Assembly (NCBI GenBank): GCA_937902985.1
Contig: CALFNG010000338.1
Location: 1-44,884 of the forward strand
From: an uncultured Myxococcales bacterium
GTDB lineage: Bacteria > Myxococcota_A > Polyangia > Polyangiales > Polyangiaceae
DNA length: 44,884 nucleotides
Reading direction: 5' to 3'
Part shown: positions 9,427 to 44,884 of the stretch, piece after piece
Layout of the letters: every line of letters begins with the position of its first letter
Numbering within the stretch: the first letter of the stretch is position 1
Notes under the pieces: generated by a model
Databases searched by the model: none
What the model saw: the letters and a program-made list of their open reading frames with translations, nothing else
What the model was told of the DNA's origin: nothing
Made by a program: the position numbers and the translations under genes

Positions 9427-12063
9427 TCACATCTCCACGCGGAGCCCGAGGCTCGGCAAGAACGGCAAGTCGTCGACGAACGACGTGCGCGTGGAATTGA
9501 AGTTGTAGCCGATGCCGTCGACGTTCCCGTTGTTGTAGACGTTGAGGACGTCGAGGTACGCGCCGATCTGACCCCAGCCGTATTTCCACGTCTTGTCGAC
9601 GCGGAGATCGAGCGAGTGAAAGAGCGGCAAGCGGGAGCCGAACGCCGGGAACGCCTGCTGCGCCAGGTACGTCCCGATGTTCTCGTCGTAGAACCCGTAG
9701 GTCTCGGGAGTGTACATGTATCCGCTGGTCAGCCGGTAGCGGGCGCCGAGCTCCCAGCCGCGCCCCAGGCGATAGCTCCCGAGCACCGTCAAGATGTGCG
9801 TCTCGTCGAACCGCGACAGCAAGAGCGGCGTCCCCGGCGCGTCGCGCCTCAGGCTCCGCGAGAGCGTGTAGGAGAGCCACCCGAAGAAGTGAGCGTCGGG
9901 CTTGTACCGGATCAAGGTCTCGGCCCCATAGATGACGCCGGTGCCCGTGCTGCCGATCCCCTGTGTCACGAGGTGGTCGAGCTGCTTGTAGAAGCCTTCG
10001 AGCGACGCCTCGATGTTGCGCGTGAACTCGCGCTCGACGCCGAGGTCATAGTGGATCGCGCGGTTGTCGGTCAGCCCGGGAGTTCCGAAGACGGAGTTCG
10101 TCTCCTGCGCCTGCGGCGGCTGCGAGAAGAGCCCGACGCCGCCTTTGAGCGTCGTGCGCGGCGACGTGGTCACGTCCTGACGGACGACGATGCGGGGGTC
10201 CACGTCCCACGCGCCGGTGTCCTTCGTGTAGTCGAGCCGGATGCCGGGAACGATCCGCGCGCCGCGCCAGGGCGTCGCTTCCCACTCCATGTACATCGCG
10301 GGCTGCACGACGCTGGCGCTCACCGACGTCGTGAGCGCCTGCTGGCCCGAGAACGGCCCCGACGGCGGCTGCCCGGGCTTGGGAAATGGCGGCAAGTGCG
10401 CGGTGGCGGTGTAGGGCGCGTCGATGAGGTCGAGCCCGACGTTCATCGTCAGCTGGGGGCCGAGCTTCTGCGAGAGCTCGACGCGCGAGGTGATGGGATA
10501 GTCGACGAGGTTGAAGAAGAGGTTGCCCGCCGTGAACGAGAACGAGTCGCGCCCGATCGACCCCACGATCTTGAAGTCGGTGTTCTCGCTGAAGCGGTTC
10601 TTGTAGATCGCCTGGCCGCGCCAGAACCCGGTGTGCGTGGTCAGGCTTCCGGCGAGCTCGGGCTCGCTCGACGACGTGTTCTGGTTCAGGAAAACGAGCG
10701 CGTCGTCGGACCCGAAGAACGCGAAGCGAAGGCTCGAGCGCTTGGTGAGGTCGCGCTGCAGGATCGCCTGGTAGTCGTAGTAAACGGGGCTGATGCTGAC
10801 GCTCGAGTTCACCGCCTTGAGGAACGGCCCGAGCCAGAGGTCGACGTACGAGCGGCGCGCCGCGACGGCGAATCGCCATCCCCAGTCGAAGATGGGGCCC
10901 TGGGCGAGCACGCGCGAGTCGAGGAGATCGACCTCGGCCATGCCGTGGAGCCGGTCTTTCGCGGGGTCGATGAGGCCGATATCGACGATGCCGCCCATCG
11001 CGCGCCCGTACTGAGCGCTGAAATTGCCTGGATAGAAGTCGAGGCGGTTGATGACCTCCGTGGGCACGACCGACGAGAGGCCGCCGAAGTGGTAAACGAC
11101 CGGTACGGGCGTCCCGTCGACGAAGTACGCCGAGTCTTGCGGGGCCGAGCCGCGCACGATGAGCAAACCCGCGAGGCCGGGCGGGCGTCCGACGCCGGGC
11201 AGGTTCTGGAGCGATCGGAGCGCGTCGCCGTTGGTGCCGGGAATCCGGCTGATCTCGCGCTGCTCGAGGGTGCGCTTGGTCACTTCGCGGGGCGGCTTTT
11301 CGCCGCGCACTTCGACCTCTTCGACGTCCCCCGCCCCCGCCGGCAAGGGCGGTGGAGCGACCGGCGCCTCGGGCGCGAGTCGGTCCACCGAGATGACCTC
11401 TTCGGCCAGTTCCACGGGCTCGTCCGCCTCGTGGAGGGCGCGCCCCAAGGCGCGGATCATCACGTGGTAGGAACCCGCGGGGAGCCCGTCGACGCGCCAG
11501 GCTCCGTCCGCGCTCGTCGTGGCCGTGTGCTCCGTGCCGGCCGCGTCGCGCACCGTCACCGTCGCTCCCGCGATCGGCCGGTCGCTCGCCATCGTGAGGA
11601 CCCGCCCCACGAGCGCCGCCGGGGGCGGCGTGAGCGTGTAGACGAACCGGAGGTTTCGCACCGGGACCGGCCTGCCGCCGCGCAGCGCCGGGTCGAACTC
11701 GAGCTTCTGGGCGGCGGCCACTGCGGCCTCGTCGATCCCGTGACCGATCGGCTTCTCGACCGCCGCATGGGTGACCGTGCCCGTTGCGTCGATGTCGAGG
11801 AGAACCGCGACTTCGACCGGCTCCCGGAAGCCCTCGTCGATGGCCTGCTTCGGGTAGGCCACGCCCTCGTTCTTCTTCACGACGGGCATCGTGATGGTGG
11901 CCGAAGGCGTCGGCGTCTCGGGCGGCGTCTGCTCGGGACGGAGCGGAACGCCCGGAATGGGCGCCGGTACGGGCGGGCCGGGCGTCTGGGCGCTCGCCGG
12001 CAGGGCGGTCGCTCCGGCAAGAACGAGCACGCACCAAAATAAGGAAGAGTTTCGCCGCTGCAT
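9427..12063 (-). CDS. TonB-dependent receptor with N-terminal TonB_C and carboxypeptidase-regulatory domains
   Basis: 878 residues, ATG at 12063, with a signal peptide ending ALPASAQ. Domains in order: a Pro-rich linker; a TonB C-terminal-like domain (about 60-150; VEVAVLLDIDATGTVTHA and AAQKLEFDPALRGGRPVPV); a carboxypeptidase-regulatory/Ig-like domain (150-220; PIAGATVTVRDAAG, GLPAGSYHVMIR); a plug (about 255-375; LQNLPGVGRPPGLAGLLIV, RGSAPQDSAYFVDG, QYGRAMGGIVDIG); then a beta-barrel to the C-terminus (SLGLRVEM). It should sit in the outer membrane and import a substrate using Ton energy. Having a TonB_C domain on the receptor itself is the unusual feature. A lipoprotein gene follows after 2 bp. 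A paralogue with the same architecture lies at 41781-44447. Substrate unknown. Confidence 0.93.
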   Translation of the reverse strand: MQRRNSSLFWCVLVLAGATALPASAQTPGPPVPAPIPGVPLRPEQTPPETPTPSATITMPVVKKNEGVAYPKQAIDEGFREPVEVAVLLDIDATGTVTHAAVEKPIGHGIDEAAVAAAQKLEFDPALRGGRPVPVRNLRFVYTLTPPPAALVGRVLTMASDRPIAGATVTVRDAAGTEHTATTSADGAWRVDGLPAGSYHVMIRALGRALHEADEPVELAEEVISVDRLAPEAPVAPPPLPAGAGDVEEVEVRGEKPPREVTKRTLEQREISRIPGTNGDALRSLQNLPGVGRPPGLAGLLIVRGSAPQDSAYFVDGTPVPVVYHFGGLSSVVPTEVINRLDFYPGNFSAQYGRAMGGIVDIGLIDPAKDRLHGMAEVDLLDSRVLAQGPIFDWGWRFAVAARRSYVDLWLGPFLKAVNSSVSISPVYYDYQAILQRDLTKRSSLRFAFFGSDDALVFLNQNTSSSEPELAGSLTTHTGFWRGQAIYKNRFSENTDFKIVGSIGRDSFSFTAGNLFFNLVDYPITSRVELSQKLGPQLTMNVGLDLIDAPYTATAHLPPFPKPGQPPSGPFSGQQALTTSVSASVVQPAMYMEWEATPWRGARIVPGIRLDYTKDTGAWDVDPRIVVRQDVTTSPRTTLKGGVGLFSQPPQAQETNSVFGTPGLTDNRAIHYDLGVEREFTRNIEASLEGFYKQLDHLVTQGIGSTGTGVIYGAETLIRYKPDAHFFGWLSYTLSRSLRRDAPGTPLLLSRFDETHILTVLGSYRLGRGWELGARYRLTSGYMYTPETYGFYDENIGTYLAQQAFPAFGSRLPLFHSLDLRVDKTWKYGWGQIGAYLDVLNVYNNGNVDGIGYNFNSTRTSFVDDLPFLPSLGLRVEM

Positions 12064-13494: not shown

Positions 13495-13778
13495 AACGGC
13501 GTCCATGACTTCGAAGGCTTGGCGCGCGTCGCCTCGCTCGCTGGTTCGTCTTCGAGAGGGAGCGGCACCGCCATGAGCAGACGGCGGGCTGATTCGATCA
13601 AGCTCGGCGGAGCCTCTGGGCTGCCTTCGGTCTGCAATGTGATCCAGCGTAAGCCGGCGCTTTGCCCGATGAAGACGAACACCGGGACGCGCTCGTGGCT
13701 CGCATGCTGGTCGATGGTCTTCAGGATGGCCGGGAAGACCTCGGCCTCGGCGTGCTTCTCGCGTTGGCTGAGTGCCAT
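13140..13778 (-). CDS. Unknown small protein, 3' part antisense to the permease gene
   Basis: From ATG 13778 the minus frame encodes a plausible soluble protein: MALSQREKHAEAEVFPAILK, then TIDQHASHERVPVFVFIGQ and LRWITLQTEGSPEAPPSLI. Codon use is good (high GC3) and residue use balanced for about 90 residues, up to about 13500. After that the frame stays open only as a shadow of the permease gene and becomes Ser/Ala/Arg-rich, so the real protein may be shorter, or the gene may have lost its native 3' end. An AAGG lies 5 bp before the ATG. I recognise no family. The plus-strand frame over the same stretch looks like a shadow. Confidence 0.4.
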   Translation of the reverse strand: MALSQREKHAEAEVFPAILKTIDQHASHERVPVFVFIGQSAGLRWITLQTEGSPEAPPSLIESARRLLMAVPLPLEDEPASEATRAKPSKSWTPFHSIEGRSPLSGTSVGSTPRAASSSKRASAIFAAIVAASSAEAPAASRSKIRSSRASSLRTCEFSGRWPGSSTRSSSAIIRIAAAIGSARRAPRMPSTAPPMRRATITIAAGKRRTCP

Positions 13779-15126: not shown

Positions 15127-15828
15127 TCACGTCTCGCTCTTCAGCCGATACCCGACGCCGGGCTCCGTGACGAGATACCGCGGGTGCGCCGGGTTCTCCT
15201 CGAGCTTCTGGCGTAGCTGCGCCATGTACACGCGAAGGTACTGCATCTGCGTCGCGTGACCTGGCCCCCAGACCTGATCGAGCAGCTGCTTGTGCGTCAG
15301 CACCATGCCCGCGTGCTTCGAGAGGGTGACGAGCAGCTTGTACTCGATGGGCGTCAGGTGGACCTCCTTGTCGCCGACGGACACGAGGCGCCTGGCGATA
15401 TCGATCCGCAGCTCGCCGATCAAGACCACGGACGTCAGGGGGTCTTGCGCGGTGCGTGCGGCACGACGCAGGGCCACGCGGACGCGCGCCATGAGCTCGG
15501 CGGAGCCGAATGGCTTGGTCAGGTAGTCGTCGGCGCCGGCGTCGAGGGCTTCGACCTTTTGCCGCTCGTGGCCTCGAGCGGAGATGACGATCACCGGCGT
15601 CGCGGTCCACTCGCGGAGGCGGCGGGTCACGTCGAGCCCGTCCATGTCCGGCAGACCGAGATCGAGGAGCACGAGGTCGGGGGTGTGCGCGGCGGCCTGC
15701 TGGAGCGCCTCGCGTCCCGTCTCGACCTCGAGGACGCGGAAACCGTGGGACGCGAGAGCAAGACGCAGCAGCGTCCTCATCTGGTGCTCGTCCTCGACGA
15801 CGAGGACCAGGGGCTTCGTGTCGGTCAT
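15127..15828 (-). CDS. kdpE: KdpE response regulator of potassium uptake
   Basis: 233-residue OmpR/PhoB-type regulator. The receiver domain (1-120) has acidic VEDE (11-14), phospho-acceptor D56 in LLDLGLPDMDGLD and K105 in DDYLTKPFG. The C-terminal winged helix (about 140-230) has LTPIEYKLLVTLSKHAGMVL and ends YLVTEPGVGYRL, typical of KdpE. ATG 15828 overlaps the kdpD stop by ATGA, so the two are translationally coupled. As the partner of KdpD it should activate kdp transcription at low potassium. It is the last gene of the operon; hairpin repeats follow its stop. Confidence 0.96.
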   Translation of the reverse strand: MTDTKPLVLVVEDEHQMRTLLRLALASHGFRVLEVETGREALQQAAAHTPDLVLLDLGLPDMDGLDVTRRLREWTATPVIVISARGHERQKVEALDAGADDYLTKPFGSAELMARVRVALRRAARTAQDPLTSVVLIGELRIDIARRLVSVGDKEVHLTPIEYKLLVTLSKHAGMVLTHKQLLDQVWGPGHATQMQYLRVYMAQLRQKLEENPAHPRYLVTEPGVGYRLKSET

Positions 15829-18563
15829 GGCTCTTGGCGCTCGACCTCGCCGTCCACCTCGCCCTGCACCGAGTGCGCCGCGGCCTCGACGGCCGCGTCC
15901 CGGGGGAGCGTGAACCGGAAGGCCGCGCCCCCGCCCGGCCGCTCGTCGACCCAGATGCGCCCGCCGTGCGCGCTCACGATGCCGCGGCAGATCGTGAGCC
16001 CGAGACCGACGCCGCCGCCTTCGCCCTCGCGGACACGAAAGAACTTGTCGAACACCCGCTCGGCGTCTTCGCGAGCGACGCCCCGTCCGCGATCCGCCAC
16101 CTCCACCTCGATCTCCTTCTCGCGCGCGATCGCGCCCACGTCGATGGGCGAGCCGGGCGGAGAGTACTTCGTGGCGTTCTCGAGCAAGTTGATGAGCACC
16201 TGTTCGATGAGAATCGCGTCGAACGGCACGAGAGGCAAATCGGGCGGGACCGACGTCACGACCGGGCGCCCTTTCAGGCGGTCTTCCACGCGGTTGAGGG
16301 CCGAGCCGACGATCTCCTCGAGCGGCTGGAGGTCGCGCTGCACCTTCAAGGCGCCGGCCTCGAGCCGGGTCATGTCGAGGAGGTTGCTCACGAGTCGGTT
16401 CAGGCGGAGGGCCTCTTCGTGCGCCGTGACGAGCAGTTCGCGCCGCACCGCCGCGTCCTTCGGGACGTCGTCTTCGAGGAGCGCGCTCGTCGCGCCCGTC
16501 ACGACGCCGAGGGGCGTACGCAGATCGTGCGAGACCGAGCTCAGAAGCGCGTTGCGGAGCTGCTCGGTCTCGATGCGCAGGCTGGCCCGTCGCGCCTCCT
16601 CGGCGAGCTGCGTTCGCTCGATCGCCGAGCCGATGAGGCCCGCGATCGTCGAGACGAGCTGCCGCTCGTCGGGATCGTCGAGGTGCGACGCATGCGACGG
16701 ATAGAGGCCCAGAACGCCGACGCGTCCCCGCGACCCCACGAGCTGAACGAAGAGCCCTCGCGCAAGCGGCAGCGTGTCGGTTCCGAGACCGGCCGGGCGC
16801 TGGTGGTTCCAGACCCAGTCGGCGACGCCCATGTCCTTGTCGTCGGTCGCGAGCGTGCCCGGGTCGGCGTGGGCGATCTCCAGCTCTTCGGGCCGCGATC
16901 CGGGCAGCAAGACGGCGACCCGGGCGTCGAACACCTCCTGCACGTGCCGCGTCGCCGCCTGGAGGATGACAGCGCGCGACGTGGCCGTGCCGAGCTCGCG
17001 GCTGATGGCGTAGAGGCTCGCGGTTCGGCGCTCCCGCCCGCGCGCGCTGTCGGCCTGATCGCGGATGCGATTGGTGAGCTGACTGATGACGACCGCCACG
17101 AGGAGCATCACCCCGAACGTGACGATGTGGCTGAAGTCGGTGACGGCGAAGCTCAGGTACGGTGGGATGAAGAAGAAGTCGAAGGCGAGGACGCTCAAGA
17201 CCGCCGCGAGCATCGACGGGCCGTACCCCAGGCGCATCGATACGAGGACGACGCCCAGCAAGAACACCATCACGATGTCCGCCAGCTGCGCGCGGCCGAA
17301 CAGCCACCACGCGACCATCGCCGACGTGACGACGACGCCCAGCGCCGCGACGTACCCGCGGGGCTCCCCGTAGGGCGCCCGGCGGCCGGGCGTCGAGACC
17401 GCAGGCGCTTTCGCCCCGGGGATGCCGGAGATCACGTAGATGTCGATCTCGCGGCTCTTGCGCACAAGATTGTCGAGGAACGACGGACGGATGACGTCGC
17501 GCCAGCGTGGATGGGTGGGCTTGCCGACGACGATCTTGGTGACGTTTCGCTTGCGCGCGTAGCGAACGGTCTCTATGGCGCCGTCCTCTGCGCGGAGCGT
17601 CACGGCCTCCCCGCCCAGCGATTCGACGAGGCGCATGTTCTGCGCGAGGCGCTCGCGATCCGGCGCGAGCATCCGGATCGACGCCGGCGTCTCGACGTAG
17701 CAACCCACGAGCTCGGCGTGGAGGCTCGTGGCCATGCGCCGCGAGGCGCGGATGAGCGTCGCCGAGTTGGGGCTGGCGGAGATGCAGACGAGCACCCGTT
17801 CGCCGGTGTGCCACGTCTCTTCGATGCCGTGCGCGGCCTTGTAGCCGCGCATCTTCGCTTCGACTCGCTCGGCGGTCCGCCGGAGCGCCAGCTCCCTCAG
17901 GGCGATGAGGTTCCCCTCGCGAAAGAAGTTCTCGACCGCCCGGGACGCCGCCTGGTCCGCGACGTAGACCTTCCCCTCCTGCAGGCGATCGAGCAGCTGG
18001 TCGACGGGCAGGTCGACCACGCGAACTTCGTAGGCCTTGTCGAACACAGCGTCGGGGACGGTCTCGCGGACGACGACCCCGGTGATCTGCGCGACGACGT
18101 CGTTCAGGCTCTCGAGGTGCTGGACGTTCAGCGTCGAGAAGACGTCGATGCCCGCATCGAGGAGCTCTTCCACGTCTTGCCATCGCTTCGGGTGGCGAGA
18201 ACCGGGCGAGTTCGTGTGCGCCAGCTCGTCGACGAGGACCACCTGCGGATGCCGCCGCAGGGTCGCGTCGAGGTCGAACTCTTCGAGCTTGATCCCGCGG
18301 TGCTCGAGCGCCCGGCGCGGGAGCATCTCGAGGCCGATGAGGAGCGCGCCCGTGTCGTACCGACCGTGGGTCTCGACGATTCCGAGCGCCACATCGCGCT
18401 TCTGGTCCTCGGCCTCGGTGCGGGCCGCCTCGAGCATCGTGTACGTCTTGCCGACTCCCGGCGCCGCGCCAAAGAAGATGGTCAGACGGCCGCGCTTGGA
18501 CAGGGCCTCCTGGTCCTGCACGCGGGCGAGAAGCTCATCGGGATCGGGGCGGCGGGCGGCCAT
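15825..18563 (-). CDS. kdpD: KdpD potassium/osmosensing histidine kinase
   Basis: 912 residues, full length. The N-terminal KdpD domain has Walker A GAAPGVGKT (32-40), LVDELAHTNSPGSRHPKRW (110-128) and STLNVQHLESLND (143-155). A Usp-like domain (about 253-380; VLVCISASPNSATLIRASRR) follows, then a four-helix DUF4118 membrane region (about 404-495, including FDFFFIPPYLSFAV), a GAF-like region (510-650), a HisKA domain with H679 in SSVSHDLRTPLG and an ATPase domain (LLENATKYSPPGSPI, GVGLGLTICRGIV). It autophosphorylates in response to potassium limitation and signals to KdpE. It starts 51 bp after kdpC and overlaps kdpE by 4 bp. Confidence 0.97.
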   Translation of the reverse strand: MAARRPDPDELLARVQDQEALSKRGRLTIFFGAAPGVGKTYTMLEAARTEAEDQKRDVALGIVETHGRYDTGALLIGLEMLPRRALEHRGIKLEEFDLDATLRRHPQVVLVDELAHTNSPGSRHPKRWQDVEELLDAGIDVFSTLNVQHLESLNDVVAQITGVVVRETVPDAVFDKAYEVRVVDLPVDQLLDRLQEGKVYVADQAASRAVENFFREGNLIALRELALRRTAERVEAKMRGYKAAHGIEETWHTGERVLVCISASPNSATLIRASRRMATSLHAELVGCYVETPASIRMLAPDRERLAQNMRLVESLGGEAVTLRAEDGAIETVRYARKRNVTKIVVGKPTHPRWRDVIRPSFLDNLVRKSREIDIYVISGIPGAKAPAVSTPGRRAPYGEPRGYVAALGVVVTSAMVAWWLFGRAQLADIVMVFLLGVVLVSMRLGYGPSMLAAVLSVLAFDFFFIPPYLSFAVTDFSHIVTFGVMLLVAVVISQLTNRIRDQADSARGRERRTASLYAISRELGTATSRAVILQAATRHVQEVFDARVAVLLPGSRPEELEIAHADPGTLATDDKDMGVADWVWNHQRPAGLGTDTLPLARGLFVQLVGSRGRVGVLGLYPSHASHLDDPDERQLVSTIAGLIGSAIERTQLAEEARRASLRIETEQLRNALLSSVSHDLRTPLGVVTGATSALLEDDVPKDAAVRRELLVTAHEEALRLNRLVSNLLDMTRLEAGALKVQRDLQPLEEIVGSALNRVEDRLKGRPVVTSVPPDLPLVPFDAILIEQVLINLLENATKYSPPGSPIDVGAIAREKEIEVEVADRGRGVAREDAERVFDKFFRVREGEGGGVGLGLTICRGIVSAHGGRIWVDERPGGGAAFRFTLPRDAAVEAAAHSVQGEVDGEVERQEP

Positions 18564-18614
18564 TCGGCTTCACGACGATACACGGATCACGTGGGCGTCA
18601 CGCGGCTCCGTCGG

Positions 18615-19202
18615 TCACTCGAGCGCGTCGAGGGCGAGGTTCAGCTCCAGGACATTGACGCCGACTTCGCCCAGCACGCCGAGCGTCCGCCCCGCCGTGT
18701 GCGCCTGAACGACCTCGCGGACTCGCGCGTCGTCGAGCCCCCGAGCCTTGGCGACCCGGTGTACCTGGTACTCGGCGGCCGCGGGACTGATCTCGGGATC
18801 GAGTCCGCTCCCGGACGACGTCACGAGGTCGACGGGGATGGGCGCGTCGTTCGCCGGGTCCGCGGCGTGAAGCGCGTCGACGCGCCCTTTCACCTCGTCG
18901 AGGAGGGCGGGGTTGGTCGGCCCGAGGTTCGACGCGACCGAGTTTCCCGCGTTGTAGGGGAGGGCCTTGCCGTTGCTGTCCGCGGTCGCCGACAGGCGTC
19001 CCCAGAAGTACTTCGGGTCGTCGAACGACTGGCCGATCAAGTGCGAGCCGACCGTCTTTCCGTTCTGGACGATGAGGCTCCCGTTGGCCTGGTGTGGAAA
19101 CGCGGCCTGCGCGACGCCCGTGACGAAGAGCGGGTACGCGAGACCCGTCACCACGGTGAGGGCAGCGAGAGAGACGAGTGCAGGTCGAAGCTGGGAGAAC
19201 AT
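18615..19202 (-). CDS. kdpC: KdpC subunit of the potassium-transporting ATPase
   Basis: 195 residues with a single N-terminal membrane helix ([20 protein letters not shown]) and a periplasmic domain. KdpC hallmarks are visible: [56 protein letters not shown] and [19 protein letters not shown]. KdpC stabilises the KdpAB complex and raises its potassium affinity. It starts 14 bp after kdpB and precedes kdpD by 51 bp. Confidence 0.97.
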
Positions 19203-19216
19203 GATGGGCTCCGCGT

Positions 19217-21448
19217 TCAGGCGAGGTGGCAGACGACGAGAAGGAGATCGATGGCCTTGATGCCGACGAACGGCACGACGATGCCCCCGAGACCGTAGAT
19301 GAGCAGGTGATCCCGCAGGAGGCGCGACGCGCCGACTGCGCGGTACTTGATGCCGCGGAGCGCGAGCGGAATCAGCGCGATGATGACGAGCGCGTTGAAG
19401 ATGACCGCGCTCAAGATCGCGCTCTGGGGCGTGGCCAGGTGCATGACGTTGAGGGCGCTGAGGGCCGGGTACGTCACGGCGAAGGCCGCGGGGATGATCG
19501 CGAAGTACTTCGCGATGTCGTTCGCGATGCTGAACGTGGTGAGCGCGCCGCGCGTCATCAGCAGCTGCTTGCCGATCTCGACCACCTCGATGAGCTTCGT
19601 CGGGTTCGAGTCGAGGTCGACCATGTTCCCCGCCTCCTTGGCCGCCTGCGTCCCGGTGTTCATCGCGACGGCGACATCGGCCTGCGCGAGGGCGGGCGCA
19701 TCGTTGGTGCCGTCGCCGGTCATGGCGACGAGCCGCCCGCCCTTCTGGTGGTCGCGAATCAACGCGAGCTTGGTCTCCGGGGTCGCCTGCGCGAGGTAGT
19801 CGTCGACCCCGGCTTCGGCCGCGATGGCCGCGGCCGTCAGCGGGTTGTCGCCCGTGATCATGATGGTCTTGATTCCCATGCGCCGGAGCTCGGCGAAGCG
19901 CTCCTTGATGCCGCCCTTGACGATGTCCTTGAGCTGCACGACCCCGAGCACCTTGCTGCCCTCGGCGACGACCAGCGGCGTGCCGCCCTGCTTGGCGACG
20001 GTGTCGACGTTCGCCCGCACTTCAGCGGGGAACGAGCCTCCCTTGCCGCGTACGTAGGCCTCGATGGCGTCGGCCGCGCCCTTGCGAATCTCGCGACCGC
20101 CGAGATCGACGCCGCTCATGCGCGTCTGCGCCGAGAAGGCCACGAACGTCGCCTTGAGGGCCTGCACGTCCCGTTCGCGGATGGAGTATAGCTCCTTCGC
20201 GAGGACGACGATACTCCGACCTTCGGGCGTCTCGTCGGCGAGCGAGCTCAGTTGCGCGGCGTCGGCCAGGGCCTCGTTGGTGATGCCCGGCGCCGCCAGC
20301 AGCGCGGTCGCCTGGCGGTTGCCGAGGGTGATCGTCCCCGTCTTGTCGAGCAAGAGGACGTCGACGTCGCCCGCGGCTTCCACCGCGCGCCCGCTCGTCG
20401 CGATGATGTTCGCCTGGATCATGCGGTCCATGCCGGCGATGCCGATCGCCGAGAGCAGCCCGCCGATCGTAGTCGGGATGAGGCACACGAGGAGCGCGAC
20501 GAGGACGGTGATCGTGACCGGCAACCCCTGCTTCGCGGCCTCGACGCTGAAGAGCGAGAAGGGCAAGAGCGTGACCGTCGCCAGGAGGAAGATGATCGTC
20601 AGCGCCGCGAGCAAGATGTCGAGCGCGATCTCGTTGGGGGTCTTCTGCCGCTTGGCGCCCTCGACCATCGCGATCATGCGATCGAGGAAGGTCTCGCCGG
20701 GGTTGGCGGTGATGCGGATCACGAGCCAGTCCGACAAGACACGCGTGCCGCCGGTGACGGCGCTGCGGTCGCCGCCGCTCTCGCGGATGACCGGCGCGCT
20801 CTCGCCGGTGATCGCGCTCTCGTCGACCGACGCGACGCCCTCGACGATCTCCCCGTCAACCGGGACGTATTCGCCGGCTTCGACGAGCACGTGGTCTCCT
20901 TTCCGGAGGTCCGAAGCGACGACCGATTGCGCTTCGGCGTCGCGGCGCGCCTCGACGAGGCGTTTGGCGTGGATGTCCTTGCGGGCCTTCCGGAGCGAAT
21001 CGGCCTGCGCCTTGCCACGCCCTTCGGCCATGGCCTCGGCGAAGTTGGCGAAGAGAACCGTGAACCATAGCCACACCGAGATGGCCAGGATGAATGTCGG
21101 CGGCGCCTCGCCATGGCCCACGACCGACTGGACGAAGAGTCCCGTGGTCATGACGCTCCCGACCTCGACCACGAACATGACCGGGTTTCGGATCTGGTGG
21201 CGCGGGTCGAGCTTCTTGAACGAGTCGACCACGGCCCGGCGAACGATCGCGGCGTCGAAGAGGGGGCGAGCCTGGCCCCGCGGTCGATGGCCGCCGAGGC
21301 CCGGGCCGCCGGCGCCGGGGGTGACGTCGACCGAATCGATCGACGTGGGCGCCTCTCCGGCGAGGCGCGAGACGCCGGGCGTGGCGGCGCGAGGCGCAAC
21401 AGTGGCGCCCGCGGCGTCGGTCTTCATGGCGATCTTGTTCGTGTTCAT
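19217..21448 (-). CDS. kdpB: KdpB P-type ATPase subunit
   Basis: 743 residues, catalytic subunit of the Kdp pump. Visible motifs: TGES (214-217, actuator), the transmembrane [20 protein letters not shown] (320-339), phosphorylation site DKTGT with D368, [21 protein letters not shown] and [20 protein letters not shown]. The Ser of TGES is the residue known to be inhibited by phosphorylation in E. coli KdpB. It carries an N-terminal extension of about 60 Ala/Gly/Pro-rich residues before the usual start near [15 protein letters not shown]; the true start could be internal. It lies 15 bp after kdpA and 14 bp before kdpC. Confidence 0.97.
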
Positions 21449-21463
21449 GACGATTTCAGAGCC

Positions 21464-23215
21464 TCATGTCTTGGCGAGGAGCTGTTCCACGATCGGGCCC
21501 AGCGCGAGTGACGGGATGAACGTGAGGGCCCCCACGACGACGATGACGCCCACGAGCATCGCGACGAAGAGGGGCGTGTGCGTCGGAAGCGTGCCGGCCC
21601 CCGGCGGGACGAGCTTCTTTCCGGCGATCGAACCCGCGAGCGCCAGGACCACCACCTTGACCCAGAAGCGCCCGAAGAACATCGAGAGGCCGAGCGTCGT
21701 GTTGTAGAACGGCGTGTTCGCGCTCAGGCCGGCGAAGGCGCTGCCGTTGTTGTTCGCGGCCGACGAGTAGGCATAGAGCACCTCGCTGAACCCGTGAGGC
21801 CCGGGGTTGAACACACCCTTCTTGCCTGCATCGCAGACGACCGCGATCGCAGTGAATATGAGCACGGTCGCTGCCGGAAACAGGATGGCGAGCGACGCCA
21901 TCTTCATCTCGTAGGCCTCGATCTTCTTGCCGATGTACTCGGGCGTACGCCCGACCATGAGCCCGGCCACGAAGACGGCCACGACCGCGAACATCAACAC
22001 GCCGTACATGCCGGAGCCGACGCCGCCGAAGATGACCTCACCGAGCTGGATGAGCCAGAGCGGCACGAGACCGGCGAGCGGCATGAACGAGTCGTGGAAG
22101 CTGTTGACCGCGCCGCACGAGGCGCCCGTGGTCGCCGCCGCGAAGAGACCGGACGCCGAGATGCCGAAGCGCAGCTCCTTGCCTTCCATGTTGCCGCCCG
22201 ACTGCAGCGCGCTCGCGACCTGGTCGACGTGAAGCGACGTGAAGGCCGGGTTCCCCGCCTGCTCCTGGGAGACGCAGAGCCAGAGCATCGGCAGGAAGAC
22301 CACCGCCATCGCGCCGAGGATCGCCCACCCCTGCCGGGTGTCCTTGACCATGCGGCCGAACGTGTACGTGAGCGCGAACGGGATGAGCAGGAGGGCGTAG
22401 ATCTCGAGTGCGTTCGAGAGCGCGGTCGGGTTCTCGAACGGGTGCGCGGAGTTGACGTTGAAGAACCCGCCGCCGTTGGTGCCGAGCTGCTTGATGGCGA
22501 GCTGCGACGCGACGGGGCCGAGCGCGAGGAGCTGGTCGGTGACCGCGTTGCCATCGGCGTCTTTCGTCGCCTGGAGGAGCGTGACGGGGTGATACGCGCC
22601 GAAGGTCTGCACCACGCCCTGCGAGACGAAGACGAGCGCGAAGACGACGGAGAGCGGGAGCAGCACGTAGAGCGTGCAGCGCGTGAGGTCGACCCAGAAG
22701 TTGCCGATCCCGGTCGCTTGCTTGCGCGCGATGCCGCGCACGAGCGCCGCCATGACGGCGATGCCCGACGCCGCGCAGACGAAGTTCTGCACGGCGAGCC
22801 CCGACATCTGCGTCAGGTAGCTCATCGTGGTCTCGCCGCCGTAGCTCTGCCAGTTCGTGTTCGTGGCGAAGCTGACCGCCGTGTTCCAAGAGAGATCGGG
22901 CGTCAACGCGCCGAAGCCCTGCGGGTTCAGCGGCAGCATCCCCTGCAAGCGCTGGAGCACGTAGAGCACGGCGATGCCGGCCCCGTTGAAGAGGAGCATC
23001 GCGCCCGCGTACGTGGTCCACTTCATCTCGCGCTTGGCGGGATCCAGCGACACGCCGGCGAGACGGTAGATGAGCCGCTCGAGCCAGCCGAACGGGGCGT
23101 CGAGGAACGTGGGCTCGCCCTCGAAGACGCGCGCCATGAACGCGCCGAGCGGCTTGGCCGACGCGACGAGCGCGCCGAGCACGAGCACGATCTGCGCGTA
23201 GCCTTGCCAGTTCAT
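21464..23215 (-). CDS. kdpA: KdpA potassium-binding channel subunit
   Basis: 583-residue polytopic membrane protein starting MNWQGYAQIVLVLGA. The pore loops of the KdpA family are present: ATNTNWQSYGGETTMSY (117-133), GTNGGGFFNVNSAHPFENP (245-263), TTGASCGAVNSFHDSFMPLA and a fourth loop with NNNGSAFAGLS. It forms the selectivity filter of the KdpFABC complex. ATG 23215 overlaps the kdpF stop by ATGA. Confidence 0.98.
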   Translation of the reverse strand: MNWQGYAQIVLVLGALVASAKPLGAFMARVFEGEPTFLDAPFGWLERLIYRLAGVSLDPAKREMKWTTYAGAMLLFNGAGIAVLYVLQRLQGMLPLNPQGFGALTPDLSWNTAVSFATNTNWQSYGGETTMSYLTQMSGLAVQNFVCAASGIAVMAALVRGIARKQATGIGNFWVDLTRCTLYVLLPLSVVFALVFVSQGVVQTFGAYHPVTLLQATKDADGNAVTDQLLALGPVASQLAIKQLGTNGGGFFNVNSAHPFENPTALSNALEIYALLLIPFALTYTFGRMVKDTRQGWAILGAMAVVFLPMLWLCVSQEQAGNPAFTSLHVDQVASALQSGGNMEGKELRFGISASGLFAAATTGASCGAVNSFHDSFMPLAGLVPLWLIQLGEVIFGGVGSGMYGVLMFAVVAVFVAGLMVGRTPEYIGKKIEAYEMKMASLAILFPAATVLIFTAIAVVCDAGKKGVFNPGPHGFSEVLYAYSSAANNNGSAFAGLSANTPFYNTTLGLSMFFGRFWVKVVVLALAGSIAGKKLVPPGAGTLPTHTPLFVAMLVGVIVVVGALTFIPSLALGPIVEQLLAKT

Positions 23216-33185: not shown

Positions 33186-35912
33186 TCACACGCGGGGGAG
33201 CTTCTGCGAGCCGTGGAGGACGCCCGCGTAGAGGTCCCCCTTCTTTGCCACCCGCTCGAGCACACTCCTGATCGTGAACCGCCTCGGGTCGAGCGACTCG
33301 TCGAGCTCGTCCCACTCGATGGGCGTCGAGACGACGGCGCCGTCGCGCGCGCGGATCGTGTAGGCGGCGACGACCGTTTTGCCCTCGCCGTTCTGGCCGT
33401 AGTCGACGTAGAGCTTCCCGCTGCGCCTGTCTTTCATGCGCTCGACCGTCGCGATCTTTGGCAGCACCTTGGCGACGGCGCGCGCGATCTGCTCGGCGAA
33501 CGCGGTGGCCTGCTCGTGCGTTGGGCCGGGCGCGATGGGCACCAGCACGTGGACGCCGCGCTTCCCGCTGGTCTTGACGATGCTCTCGAGCTTGAGCGCG
33601 TCGAGCAGCGCGCGCACCGCGCGAGCCACCTCGACGAGGTGATCCCAGGGCCCGTCTCCCGGATCGAGGTCGAGGACGACGTAGTCGGGTAGCGCGATCG
33701 TGGGCTCGTGGGCGGACCACCCGTGCAGCGTGAGGGCTGCGAGGTTCGCGAGCCACTGGAGGGTCTCGACGTTGTCGCAGACGATCCTTCTCTTGTTGTC
33801 GTGACGCTCGCCCACGTCCACGAGGCGAACGAAGTCGGGGGTCTTGTCGGGCGCGTTCTGCTGGTACCACTCGGGCGCGTCGATGCCGTTGGGGTATCGC
33901 TGAAGCGTCAACGGGCGGCCCGCGAGGTGCGGGAGCATCACCGGGGCGATGGCCGTGTAGTAGTCCCAGATCTCGCGCTTGGTGATGCCGTCGCGCGGGA
34001 AGAGCACCTTGTCGGGGTTCGAGAGCTTGGGCGCGTCGCGCCACGCGGCTCCGGCCGGCCTCTTCGAAACGGGGGCGTCCTGCCCGCCGGGCTCCTTCGC
34101 CGGCTTCGTCGGCTGCGTCGCCTGCGTGGATTTTGCAACCCGCGCAGGCGCGGAGGGAGCGTCTTGCTTCGTCATCGAGCGCGCTCCTTGGGCCTTTGCG
34201 ACCTTCGCGGTCGCGGTGACGGCGGCGATGCTCTCGAGAGCCGTAGCCGGTGCTTCGCGCACGCAGTCGCCGGGGGTCTTGTCTGCGCGGAGGCCGAGAA
34301 ACCGCGGGTGCCGCATCGAGCCTTCACGGGTCCACTCGGTGAACGCGCACTCGCACACGAGCGACGGCGTGACCCAGCGCGCGTCTTTGATCTTCGGCGC
34401 GCCCTCGATCGGCGGTTCGTTGACGCGCGCTGCGTTCAGCCGCGCGCCGAGCGCCTGTCGCGTCCGCGCGTCGAAGCCCGTGCCCACGCGGCCGGCGAAG
34501 ACGAGGGCCCCGGGTCGCGACGGCTCGACGACGCCGAGCAGGAGCGCGCCCACGTCGTCGTGTGTCCCCGCCATGGGGATGTACCCGGCGATCGCGCACT
34601 CTTGCCGCTTGTCGAACCGAAGCTTGATCCATTGCCCCGAGCGACCCGCCGTGTACGCCGAGCCCCGCTTCTTCGCGATCAGGCCCTCGAGTCCGTTCGC
34701 CTTGGCCGCCGCGAGCAGGCCTTCGACCTCGCCCTCGACCGCGCGTGACAGCACGATGGGCGGCCTCGGGTTGCGCACGAGCGCCTCGAGCAGCTCGCGC
34801 CTCCTCTCGATCGGCTCGCGTCGGAGATCGCGTCCGTCGAGCCAGAGGAGATCGAACACCGCGAAGACGATCGCCGCGGCGTCTGGCTTTCCCACGGCGG
34901 CCTTCGCCAGCCAGTCCTGCAGGGCGCCGAACGACGGGCGCCCCTTCGCGTCGACGACGCAAGCTTCGCCGTCGACGACGCACTCGCGCGCTCCGATCGC
35001 GCCGACGGCGTCGGCGATGGGACGGAAGCGATCGGTCCAGTCGTTCGCCCGGCGCGTATAGAGCCGCACTTCGGGGCCCGCCTTGCACGCGAGCAGCCGG
35101 TACCCATCGTACTTGATCTCGTAGAGCCACTCGTCGGGGTTCCCGATCTTCGCGTCCGCCGTTGCCAGCGCGAGCTCGCCCACGGTGTCTTTGAGGGCGC
35201 GGGCGCTCTGGCCCTGCTCCGACGCGCCCACGCGACGTGGCCCTCGCGTCGCCTCTTTCCCGCTCACCACGGACTCGGGGCGCTCCGTGATCACGTCGAG
35301 CGCGGGGTTGGCCTGGGCGTCCTTTGCCTTGAAGAAGAGCCACTGGGACTTGCCAGGCTGACCCGCGCCGTCGTCCAGCCGGCCGCCGCCGCGGTTGGTG
35401 CGAACGAAGTGCCAGTCCCCGACGAGCTTCTCGCCGGCGATGCGCACGTGCAGGTGCCCCTTGGCCATCATCGCCTGCTGCTGTCCCGGCGGCACGGTGT
35501 CGTACGTCCCGCGGTCCCAGAGGAGGACATCTCCCGCGCCGTACTCGCCGTCGGGGATGCGCCCCTCGAACTTGTTGTAGGCCATCGGGTGGTCTTCGGT
35601 CTGGACGGCCAGGCGCTTGACCGCGGGATCGAAGCTCGGCCCCTTGGGGACGGCCCAGCTGGCCATCGCGCCGTCGATCTCGAGGCGCAAGTCGTAGTGC
35701 AGTCTTCGCGCGTCGTGTTTCTGAACGACGAACTCGAGGGCGCGCGGATCCGCCGTTTTCTTTCCCTTCCAGGCTTCGTCTTGCGACGATCCAGGCTCGG
35801 GCGTCACCTCGAAGTCGCGCTTCGCCCGGTACGTGGCGAGACGATCGGGGCTGCTCGTCTTTTCAGTATCGGCCTTGTTTGCCTCGTTTGCCTTGTTCGC
35901 CTTGCGCTTCAT
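33186..35912 (-). CDS. ligD: ATP-dependent DNA ligase D (phosphoesterase-ligase-polymerase)
   Basis: About 910 residues; start ATG 35912 or GTG 35918. Numbering from the GTG: 3'-phosphoesterase domain (about 25-200) with HDARRLHYDLRLE (68-80) and H110; ATP ligase domain (about 240-560) with nucleotidyl lysine K269 in YEIKYDGYR, EGLIAKKRGSAYTAGRSGQW and WIKLRFDKRQECAIAGY; a Lys/Ala/Pro-rich linker (about 560-640); primase-polymerase domain (about 640-905) with the catalytic VLDLDPGDGPWDH and TSGKRGVHVLVPI. Domain order is that of Pseudomonas LigD. It works with Ku in non-homologous end joining, trimming, filling and sealing breaks. The N-terminus has a short KANKANEANKAD repeat. It is divergent from ku, with about 20 bp between. 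Confidence 0.97.
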   Translation of the reverse strand: MKRKANKANEANKADTEKTSSPDRLATYRAKRDFEVTPEPGSSQDEAWKGKKTADPRALEFVVQKHDARRLHYDLRLEIDGAMASWAVPKGPSFDPAVKRLAVQTEDHPMAYNKFEGRIPDGEYGAGDVLLWDRGTYDTVPPGQQQAMMAKGHLHVRIAGEKLVGDWHFVRTNRGGGRLDDGAGQPGKSQWLFFKAKDAQANPALDVITERPESVVSGKEATRGPRRVGASEQGQSARALKDTVGELALATADAKIGNPDEWLYEIKYDGYRLLACKAGPEVRLYTRRANDWTDRFRPIADAVGAIGARECVVDGEACVVDAKGRPSFGALQDWLAKAAVGKPDAAAIVFAVFDLLWLDGRDLRREPIERRRELLEALVRNPRPPIVLSRAVEGEVEGLLAAAKANGLEGLIAKKRGSAYTAGRSGQWIKLRFDKRQECAIAGYIPMAGTHDDVGALLLGVVEPSRPGALVFAGRVGTGFDARTRQALGARLNAARVNEPPIEGAPKIKDARWVTPSLVCECAFTEWTREGSMRHPRFLGLRADKTPGDCVREAPATALESIAAVTATAKVAKAQGARSMTKQDAPSAPARVAKSTQATQPTKPAKEPGGQDAPVSKRPAGAAWRDAPKLSNPDKVLFPRDGITKREIWDYYTAIAPVMLPHLAGRPLTLQRYPNGIDAPEWYQQNAPDKTPDFVRLVDVGERHDNKRRIVCDNVETLQWLANLAALTLHGWSAHEPTIALPDYVVLDLDPGDGPWDHLVEVARAVRALLDALKLESIVKTSGKRGVHVLVPIAPGPTHEQATAFAEQIARAVAKVLPKIATVERMKDRRSGKLYVDYGQNGEGKTVVAAYTIRARDGAVVSTPIEWDELDESLDPRRFTIRSVLERVAKKGDLYAGVLHGSQKLPRV

Positions 35913-35937
35913 CCACACCCGCTAGAGAGTTTTCGAG

Positions 35938-40701: not shown

Positions 40702-41787
40702 TCAGCGCACGTCGAACACGTATTCCGCCCAGCCCACCCCGCCGCGGTCGTCGCGCAACACGACCCACAGGTGCACGTTGCCCGCGACGGTCGGCGCGGT
40801 CCACCCGTTGTCGCTCGTCGTGGCCAGGTCGGTCGCGTCGCGCCCGGTGCGGTCGGCGTCGAACGAACCGCCGGTCGTGTACCACGCGACCGCCATCGAC
40901 TCGCGATCGACGACGATGGCCTGGACGTTCAGGTCGAAGACCACGAAGCGCTCCGCGCCGCTGCACCCCCCCGCGATCGTGCAATCGGCTTCGCACGTCG
41001 TGCTGGTCTCGTCGGGGCCGCACACGCCGTCGCCGCACGCATCCGTGGTCGGGCACGACGCCCAGGCGAGTTCGAGGGTAACGTGCGCGCCCGCCGGCAC
41101 CGGGTTCGTTCCCTGGTCGGAGGCGACGAGCGGCGCTCGAGCCCCGGCCACGGCGAGCCAGGCCACCACGGGGTTCGTGTTCGCGTGATAGCGGTGCTGG
41201 TACTCGACGCCGACTTCCGCGGGAATGACGCCCGCACCACACGACAGCCGCGTCTCATCGATGGTGATCGGGGTCGGCGAGCTCGGGGCCAGGATCCGGA
41301 TCGGGTCGTAGTAACCCCCCGTCGTGTCGGGATCGACCGGCCGGCCCTGCGGCTGTCCGGGGACCGGAGGCGGGACGTCGGGCCCGAAGAGCTTGCACGC
41401 GTCGGGCGGGATCGTGCCGGCCACCTGCTCGCCGTCGCCGAGGGACACGAACCAGTCTCCCGCGGTCTGTTCGCACTTGGCATTGACCGGGCCGAGGTCC
41501 GCGAGCGGCTTGCGCGCCTCGCAGAAGTCCCAGCGAAGGCCTCCGTTCGGGATCGTTCCGGAGCGATCGACGTAGAGCGCGCGGTACTTGACGCTCGTGG
41601 TCGGCGCCGCCTCGGCGGGGTCCGACTGGATGGCGAGCACGCTCGGGTCGGTGACGAGCGAAATGGTTTGATCGAGGTCGGGCTTGCAGGCCGACGCGAG
41701 CGCCAGGCACGTCGCGCCCGCGACCAGGCCCGGCACGACGCGGGCGACGCGAACGAGGCGGACGAGGCGCGAGCCGACAGCTACCAC
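40702..41787 (-). CDS. Lipoprotein, partner of TonB receptor cassette 2
   Basis: 361 residues from GTG 41787, overlapping the receptor stop by 7 bp. A basic start, hydrophobic segment and lipobox LALASAC give mature CKPDLDQTISLVTDPSVLAI. The mature protein has Ig-like beta features and a Cys-rich knot (CPTTDACGDGVCGPDETSTT, then CEADC). It ends HLWVVLRDDRGGVGWAEYVF, matching the end of the cassette 1 lipoprotein. No named family is recognised. It is inferred to be an envelope accessory of the upstream receptor. Confidence 0.85.
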   Translation of the reverse strand: MVAVGSRLVRLVRVARVVPGLVAGATCLALASACKPDLDQTISLVTDPSVLAIQSDPAEAAPTTSVKYRALYVDRSGTIPNGGLRWDFCEARKPLADLGPVNAKCEQTAGDWFVSLGDGEQVAGTIPPDACKLFGPDVPPPVPGQPQGRPVDPDTTGGYYDPIRILAPSSPTPITIDETRLSCGAGVIPAEVGVEYQHRYHANTNPVVAWLAVAGARAPLVASDQGTNPVPAGAHVTLELAWASCPTTDACGDGVCGPDETSTTCEADCTIAGGCSGAERFVVFDLNVQAIVVDRESMAVAWYTTGGSFDADRTGRDATDLATTSDNGWTAPTVAGNVHLWVVLRDDRGGVGWAEYVFDVR

Positions 41788-44447
41788 GTGACCCTCGCGC
41801 CGATCACGGGCAGCACCGGGAACCCCGTGATGTACCCGCGCTGCTTGTAGCTGGGATTGTACACGATCTCCTCGGGGTTCGAGTGGTCGGTCACGTTCTG
41901 CACGTCGAGGTACACCTCGCCGTCGATGCGTCCGTATTTGAAATGCTTGGCCACGCGCGCGTCGAGCGAGACGAACGACGGGATTCGAATCGAGTTGTGC
42001 TCTCCGAAGATCGGCTCGAACGTGTGCCGCGTCGAGTCGTAGAACGAGCCCAGAACCGGCGTGCGCGGATAGCCCGTCGCAAAGCGGAACCGGAGGCCGA
42101 CCTCGAAGCCCGCGCCGAGGTCGTAGGACCCGAGCGCCGTGAAGACGTGCGACTGGTCGTAGTCGAAGAGACGCCAGTCGAGGGTGGGCGCGTCCTTCCG
42201 TTCGCTGCGGAGGATGCTGTAGCTGACCCAGCCGAAGAAGCGGCCGACCTGCTGCTGACGCAGGAGAAACTGCGTGCCATAGGCGCGGCCGATCCCGGTC
42301 TGTTCGAGCGCCTGCGCCAGCAGCGGGCTCTCGGCCAGACTGCGCGCGACGAGCTCCTGCTGCTCCGAGAGGAAGCCGGTCATCTCGATCGACAGAGACG
42401 GGGTCAGCTGGAACGAAGCCCCCGCCAGGTAGTGCTGGGCCGACGAGAGACCGAGCGGCGGCGTGCCGAAGGCGGCCGAGATGTCTTCCGGCTGCGGGGC
42501 CTGATGGTAGATGCCGAAGGCCGCCTTGGCCGCGATCTCCGGCGTGAAGGCGTAGCGCACGGCCAGCCGGGGCTCGATCTCGGCGGACTCGCTCGTGAGG
42601 CCTTCGTTCGGCGAGGGCGCGGTCACGGGGACGGCCTTGGTGGTCGAGGTGATGTACGGCTCGAAGCGCGCGCCCGGGATGACGTGCAGCCGATCGTCGA
42701 GGAGCGAGATATCGGCCTCGGCGTAGGGCGCGAGCGAGCCGATCACGGTCTTCCAGTCGTCGGCAGCGACGCCCGCGGGGGGAGGCTCGCCGAAGACGTA
42801 CTCGTCGCCTTCGCGGGGCGGCGCTCCGATGGAGCCGTTACGGTGGAGCGACGAGGCGACCATCTCGATGTCGACGCCGACGGCGCCGCGAATGTGGTCG
42901 GCGAGCGGCCCGTGCCAGTCGGCGCGCAGCCCGAAGAGCGTCGAATCGTTCTTCGCGTCGGTGACGATCGAGCCGTACGCGTTCGCGAGCGTCGTCCTGG
43001 TGACGCCGAAGGAGGGCACGACGGTGACGACGCTGCTGTCGGGCTGGTGCTTCTCGTACCGGAGGTAAATCCGCTCGAAGTCGGTGCCCGTCGTCTGCTG
43101 CGTCGTGAGGCTCGGATCGGGGTTTACCAGCGTGTTCGCGATGCGGTCCGACGAGGCGAGCACGCCGAACTCGAGGGTCTCGTGGGGCGCGAGTTCGTAG
43201 ACGATCCGCGCCTGCGCGTCCCAGTATCGCGGGATCGGCACGATGTTGCCGACGTCTTCCGAGGTGACGGCGTTGACGGACGTATCGAGGTAACTCTTCC
43301 GGATGCCGGCCGCGACGTGGACCCGGTCGGCGACCTTGGCGCGCACGTCAGCCGAGGCGTCGATGACGTCGGCGCCCGCGCTCCCGTGGATGCCGTCTTC
43401 GTCGAGCGGACGCATGGCGACGGTGACCAGGCCGCCCAGGCCGCGGCCGTAGCTCGGACCGTAACCGCCCGGCACGAGCTCGACCGACTTGACGAAGTTC
43501 GACGGCAAGATCGAGCGGTAGCCCCCGCCGTGGTAGAGGAGCGGCACGTGGACGCCGTCGACGTAGACGCGCGTGTCCTGCGGAGCCGAGCCCCAGACCA
43601 CGAGCGACGACGAACCCGCGGCCGCGCGCGCCACGCCGGGCAGGTTCTCGACGACCTTGAGCACGTCGCCCTGGGTCCCCGGCACCTTCGCGGCTTGCGT
43701 CGCCTGGACCTCCGTCGACACGACCTGTTTCTTGAGCCGCGGCGCGGTGACCACGATCTCGTCGTCTTCGTCGGCGGAGCCGGTCTTCTCCTTCTTCCTG
43801 TCGACCTCGTAGGTCGCGTCGATCTTCTTGCTCGCCTCGAACGTCTCGGTGGTGCCCACGGTCGCGAGGCTCTCGCCGGAGATCGTGACGAGGTGGTCGC
43901 CCGGCGCGATGTCGAGAATGCGAAATTTGCCTTGCGCGTCGGTCAGCGCCTCCTGGCCGGTGTCGACCGCGACGCGCACGTTGGCCATCGGTTGCTTGCC
44001 GTGGCGATCGCGGACGACGCCTTCGAAGTCGGCCGTCTGCTTTTTGACGAGCGTCTCGGTGAACGTGAACTGATACCGGTAGGCGATCTTCACCGGGATG
44101 GGCGTCCCGTTGATCGTCGCGGGCGTGAAGGTGAACTGCTTCGCGGCGCCGACAGCCGCCGCGTCGAAGTCCGGCCCCGCGGACTCGACGACGGACACCG
44201 CGGCCACCTTGCCGGTCGCGTCGATGGCGATCTGCAGGAGCACCGCCGCGCCCTTGCCGGCGGCCACCTGCGAGGGCGGGAACTGCGCGTCGACGAACGT
44301 CACGAGCTTCGGAGGGACGATCACGCGCCGGCTCGAGGGCGCGGCTTGCCCCGTTTGCCCCGCCGACTGGGCGCGCGCCGTAGGGGCGACCGACAGGCTC
44401 ATCGCCAGCGCGGTCGCGGCGGCGAAGCGATCGGCGCGCGCTCTCAT
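41781..44447 (-). CDS. TonB-dependent receptor with N-terminal TonB_C and carboxypeptidase-regulatory domains
   Basis: 888 residues from ATG 44447, which overlaps the upstream TonB stop (ATGA); longer frames to the right read through that gene. Signal peptide MRARADRFAAATALAMSLSV then APTARAQ. TonB_C-like domain (about 40-130: AVLLQIAIDATGKVAAVSVV, AAKQFTFTPATINGTPIPVK), regulatory beta-domain (about 140-215: FRILDIAPGDHLVTISGE), plug (about 250-370: VVENLPGVARAAAGSSSLVV, WGSAPQDTRVYVDGVHVPLL, SYGRGLGGLVTVAMRP) and barrel ending VLPVIGARVTW. It is a paralogue of the receptor at 9427-12063 with the same domain order and the same downstream lipoprotein. Transported substrate unknown. Confidence 0.93.
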   Translation of the reverse strand: MRARADRFAAATALAMSLSVAPTARAQSAGQTGQAAPSSRRVIVPPKLVTFVDAQFPPSQVAAGKGAAVLLQIAIDATGKVAAVSVVESAGPDFDAAAVGAAKQFTFTPATINGTPIPVKIAYRYQFTFTETLVKKQTADFEGVVRDRHGKQPMANVRVAVDTGQEALTDAQGKFRILDIAPGDHLVTISGESLATVGTTETFEASKKIDATYEVDRKKEKTGSADEDDEIVVTAPRLKKQVVSTEVQATQAAKVPGTQGDVLKVVENLPGVARAAAGSSSLVVWGSAPQDTRVYVDGVHVPLLYHGGGYRSILPSNFVKSVELVPGGYGPSYGRGLGGLVTVAMRPLDEDGIHGSAGADVIDASADVRAKVADRVHVAAGIRKSYLDTSVNAVTSEDVGNIVPIPRYWDAQARIVYELAPHETLEFGVLASSDRIANTLVNPDPSLTTQQTTGTDFERIYLRYEKHQPDSSVVTVVPSFGVTRTTLANAYGSIVTDAKNDSTLFGLRADWHGPLADHIRGAVGVDIEMVASSLHRNGSIGAPPREGDEYVFGEPPPAGVAADDWKTVIGSLAPYAEADISLLDDRLHVIPGARFEPYITSTTKAVPVTAPSPNEGLTSESAEIEPRLAVRYAFTPEIAAKAAFGIYHQAPQPEDISAAFGTPPLGLSSAQHYLAGASFQLTPSLSIEMTGFLSEQQELVARSLAESPLLAQALEQTGIGRAYGTQFLLRQQQVGRFFGWVSYSILRSERKDAPTLDWRLFDYDQSHVFTALGSYDLGAGFEVGLRFRFATGYPRTPVLGSFYDSTRHTFEPIFGEHNSIRIPSFVSLDARVAKHFKYGRIDGEVYLDVQNVTDHSNPEEIVYNPSYKQRGYITGFPVLPVIGARVTW

Positions 44448-44840
44448 TCCAGTTCGAACCGTTGAGTCACCATGGCGGTCGCGACGACCGGCCGGCCGCA
44501 CAGGGTCGCGGGCTCGTAGACGCACTTCTTCGCCGCCTCGAGGGCCGCCTCGTCGAGGCCGTAGCCCAGGCCGCTCACCACGCGCGCCGCGATCACGCGG
44601 CCCGTCTCGCCGACCGTCACCTCGACTTTGACGAGGCCCTCGATCTCGGCCTGCTTGGCCTGCATCGTGTACTTGCCCTGCACGCCCACGGTGCGCCTGG
44701 GCCGAACGACGGCCTGGGTGCACTGATCGGGGCCCGCGGCGGCGAGCTGCTGCACGGCCTTCTTCGTGACGGCCTTCGGCGCCGCCGCCGCGCCGGCCCC
44801 ACCGGCCGCGGCGCGCGCACCGAGCCCCGCCGGGATGGCC
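44444..44840 (-). CDS. TonB-family energy transducer, partial, cut by the contig end
   Basis: C-terminal 131 residues or so of a TonB-family protein; the frame remains open to 44840, where adapter sequence begins, so the start and membrane anchor are missing. The TonB C-terminal domain is clear: GLVKVEVTVGETGRVIAARV, VSGLGYGLDEAALEAAKKC, VYEPATLCGRPVVATAMVT, ending QRFELE. An Ala/Lys-rich linker precedes it. It overlaps the receptor start by 4 bp and presumably energises that receptor. Confidence 0.85.
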
Positions 44841-44884
44841 AGATCGGAAGAGCGTCGTGTAGGGAAAGAGTGTAGATCTCGGTG
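44841..44884 (+). other. Illumina TruSeq adapter sequence (artefact)
   Basis: The last 44 bases begin AGATCGGAAGAGCGTCGTGT and end GTGTAGATCTCGGTG, the reverse complement of the TruSeq universal adapter as I know it, uninterrupted to the contig end. Its plus-strand translation yields the familiar contaminant peptide IGRASCRERV. It is not genomic. Confidence 0.97.

Follow-up and report, generated by a model that had tools for sequence, protein, structure and literature searches.

The last 44 bases of the window, which is the whole stretch of DNA analysed here and comprises 44884 bases, are with practical certainty an untrimmed Illumina TruSeq adapter. On this reading the sequencing read would have run through into the adapter, the contig edge was extended along it, and the break fell inside a minus-strand tonB gene, an ordinary gene of nutrient uptake which is probably intact in the organism.

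Adapter at the contig end

Contig C338 (44884 bases) and the window are coextensive, and the adapter match therefore extends outward to the final base of the contig. Positions 44841-44884 on the plus strand read AGATCGGAAGAGCGTCGTGTAGGGAAAGAGTGTAGATCTCGGTG and are identical, at 44/44 bases and without a mismatch, to positions 1-44 of the TruSeq universal-adapter read-through sequence, which we take to be 58 bases long in full. The preliminary description had assigned these bases to the Illumina TruSeq universal adapter and placed the end of the window at an assembly break. The comparison with the adapter sequence confirmed the first statement, and the second is upheld as well. The read-2 adapter printed in PMC10038132 corresponds to the first 33 bases of AGATCGGAAGAGCGTCGTGTAGGGAAAGAGTGTAGATCTCGGTG, and the same paper also gives a 37-base form ending in TGTAGAT. 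At equal base frequencies, the chance of a specific 44-mer is about 3e-27 per position. One exact copy of the 13-base adapter core was present in the window, and the matches with two mismatches elsewhere in the window were within the range expected by chance. No adapter was found at the window start. The 44 bases are annotated as an artefact to be trimmed, on the basis of their 44/44 identity and the occurrence of both adapter arms at other contig ends of the draft.

The draft genome consists of 8,306,811 bases in 563 contigs, giving 1126 contig edges. Exact searches returned 10 matches for the universal arm and 31 for the index arm, while a reversed control pattern searched in the same draft gave 0 matches. 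The exact 13-mer core common to both arms occurred in 67 copies, 66 of which were at contig edges and pointed outward. On the minus strand, all copies but one lay at most 51 bases from the contig start; all of the plus-strand copies (n = 36) started at most 51 bases before the last base of the contig, as checked in the fetched contig ends. The single internal copy (C446:19887) continues into non-adapter bases and, as judged from its sequence, is a chance genomic 13-mer. The number of adapter-bearing edges is thus at least 66 of 1126, a count over all contigs that covers adapters with the exact 13-mer. The barcode TTAGGC, presumably TruSeq index 3, was found in all 16 readable copies of the index arm, indicating one library, and the genomic flanks of the adapter copies varied between contigs of the draft. 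Some of these adapter-bearing edges might be joined if the contigs were trimmed and reassembled.

These observations bear on the reading of the 44 bases as genuine genomic DNA that resembles the adapter by chance. The internal 13-mer on C446 demonstrates that a short core can arise in this way, but the identity over all 44 bases, the location of every core copy but one at a contig edge and the presence of both arms with a single barcode leave that reading a vanishingly small probability. No evidence was found against the adapter reading, for which the following sequence of events is proposed. Some library fragments would have been shorter than the read length, so that the read passed the insert and entered the adapter, a short-insert read-through that would account for the first step. 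The reads would then have been left untrimmed, or not fully trimmed, and the assembler would have carried the contig edge on into the adapter for as long as it had support. The adapter may have caused the break or may simply mark the point at which coverage ended. The contig would consequently end inside the minus-strand tonB, with the missing half probably represented by a piece at the end of another contig, C125.

The tonB gene at the break and its probable other half

The 131 residues encoded by the minus-strand interval 44444-44840 include a TonB_C domain (Pfam PF03544, E = 1.2e-15), and the interval was annotated as a 5'-truncated tonB, the energy transducer, which retains TonB_C and part of the linker. 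As a minus-strand gene, tonB loses its beginning to the break, namely the transmembrane and proline-rich portion at the N-terminus. The start codon and N-terminus lie beyond the contig end. Close homologues from the same family are 240-246 amino acids long and carry an N-terminal membrane segment followed by a proline-rich linker. In the alignment, the first genomic residues of tonB in the window (AIP...) correspond to the (A/S)VP motif that follows the linker in these homologues. By this alignment and the homologue lengths, about 105-120 N-terminal residues are missing from tonB in the window. Upstream of tonB, the homologous loci carry exbB- and exbD-like genes, as seen from the translations and an ExbD search. 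The earlier view that tonB was truncated by the assembly break and not by biology is supported by these longer homologues, with their upstream exbB and exbD genes and tonB N-terminus.

To the contig that lacks the membrane anchor and proline-rich linker present in the homologues, a fitting piece was found at the end of C125. Searching the N-terminal part of a homologue against the genome of the window returned two places, on C407 and on C125. The place on C407 is an apparently intact tonB. At C125:12946-13619, exbD is followed by the start of a tonB, and the contig stops in the linker, at base 13619. C125 thus holds an N-terminal piece and C338 a C-terminal piece, and the two are complementary. 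The end of C125 is probably the other half of tonB in the window, and the homologue alignment would place about 10-20 codons in the gap between the two contigs. The 26 bases preceding the adapter were searched in the genome, which contained no second copy of them and no direct overlap joining C338 to another contig; with no overlap shared by C125 and C338, the link is likely but unproven. C125 terminates in AGATC, which equals the first five bases of the adapter. These bases were not counted as adapter, because the D they also encode agrees with the (A/P)D(F/L/Y)G motif of the homologues.

It is extremely unlikely that tonB really ends here, for example through a deletion or at the end of a linear replicon, with the adapter ligated to that end. 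The lack of a sequence overlap joining C338 to another contig would agree with such a biological truncation, for which there is no direct evidence. However, many contigs of the draft end in adapter at unrelated places, and the exbD-tonB N-terminal piece in which C125 breaks off would complete the gene. A break that reflects a real structural variant of tonB, carried by some of the sampled population, and not simply low coverage, is slightly less improbable, though still very unlikely. The GC-rich stretch of proline codons may be a plausible spot for a drop in coverage. We retain the reading of an assembly break in a tonB gene that is otherwise probably whole.

Downstream of tonB, a TonB-dependent outer-membrane receptor was annotated at 41781-44450 on the minus strand, with its true start inside this interval (Pfam PF00593, PF07715, PF03544 and PF13620). 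In the energy transducer TonB, the TonB_C domain normally stands at the C-terminus. In this receptor-like protein and in a second one at 9427-12063, also on the minus strand, a TonB_C domain is N-terminal and is followed by CarboxypepD_reg and Plug domains. A search for relatives returned many frames of 850-1100 amino acids in the same family and order, which seem to share this TonB_C-receptor architecture. Elsewhere on the minus strand, 15127-23215 holds a cluster for potassium uptake by Kdp, with KdpA and a P-type ATPase that is presumably KdpB; downstream of it, a frame of 1018 amino acids with C-terminal response-regulator and DNA-binding domains is possibly a fused KdpD-KdpE. A LigD-type multidomain DNA ligase of bacterial end joining, with phosphoesterase, ligase and primase-polymerase domains, is encoded at 33186-35918 (minus strand).

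Peptides read from the adapter

In the chimeric frame of tonB, the adapter is read as HRDLHSFPTRRSSDL at the N-terminus, a peptide found in none of the aligned tonB homologues. On the plus strand, the list of open reading frames contains a spurious antisense frame at 44462-44875, opposite tonB, whose tail IGRASCRERV is encoded by the adapter and which is not a gene. The preliminary description had called a protein ending in IGRASCRERV false, which holds, but this is not the TonB protein, the frame being antisense to tonB. Searched for in the literature, the false peptides led to one paper on a yeast two-hybrid method. Both HRDLHSFPTRRSSDL and IGRASCRERV should be kept out of protein databases. 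The consequences are a matter of quality control only: 44841-44884 should be trimmed and tonB marked as partial.

Comparison with other assemblies and known systems

Exact scans for the 44-mer gave at least 120 matches in viral contigs and at least 120 in species genomes. Among the matches listed, the 44-mer continued into the full 58-mer in 39 viral and 70 genome places, and it stood at the ends of contigs, both viral ones and those of unrelated metagenome bins, with a flank that differed each time. The species genomes bearing it come from unrelated phyla, which speaks against a biological element with a shared origin. Contamination of microbial genome assemblies by adapter sequence at the ends of contigs has been systematically described (Moeller et al. 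2024, PMC11536531). The adapter core is the same in that study, with forward copies where contigs end and reverse complements where they start, and the core is followed by two arm-specific sequences, as in the present draft. An exact 13-mer was used here and a 12-mer there; otherwise nothing of substance differs. The adapter at the end of contig C338 is thus confirmed as an ordinary, already known database artefact with nothing biologically novel about it.

The gene at the break can in turn be compared with the ExbB-ExbD-TonB operon with a TonB-dependent receptor. The TonB_C domain is shared, and in the homologues exbB, exbD, tonB and the receptor follow one another, whereas contig C338, because of the break, holds the C-terminal half of tonB alone.
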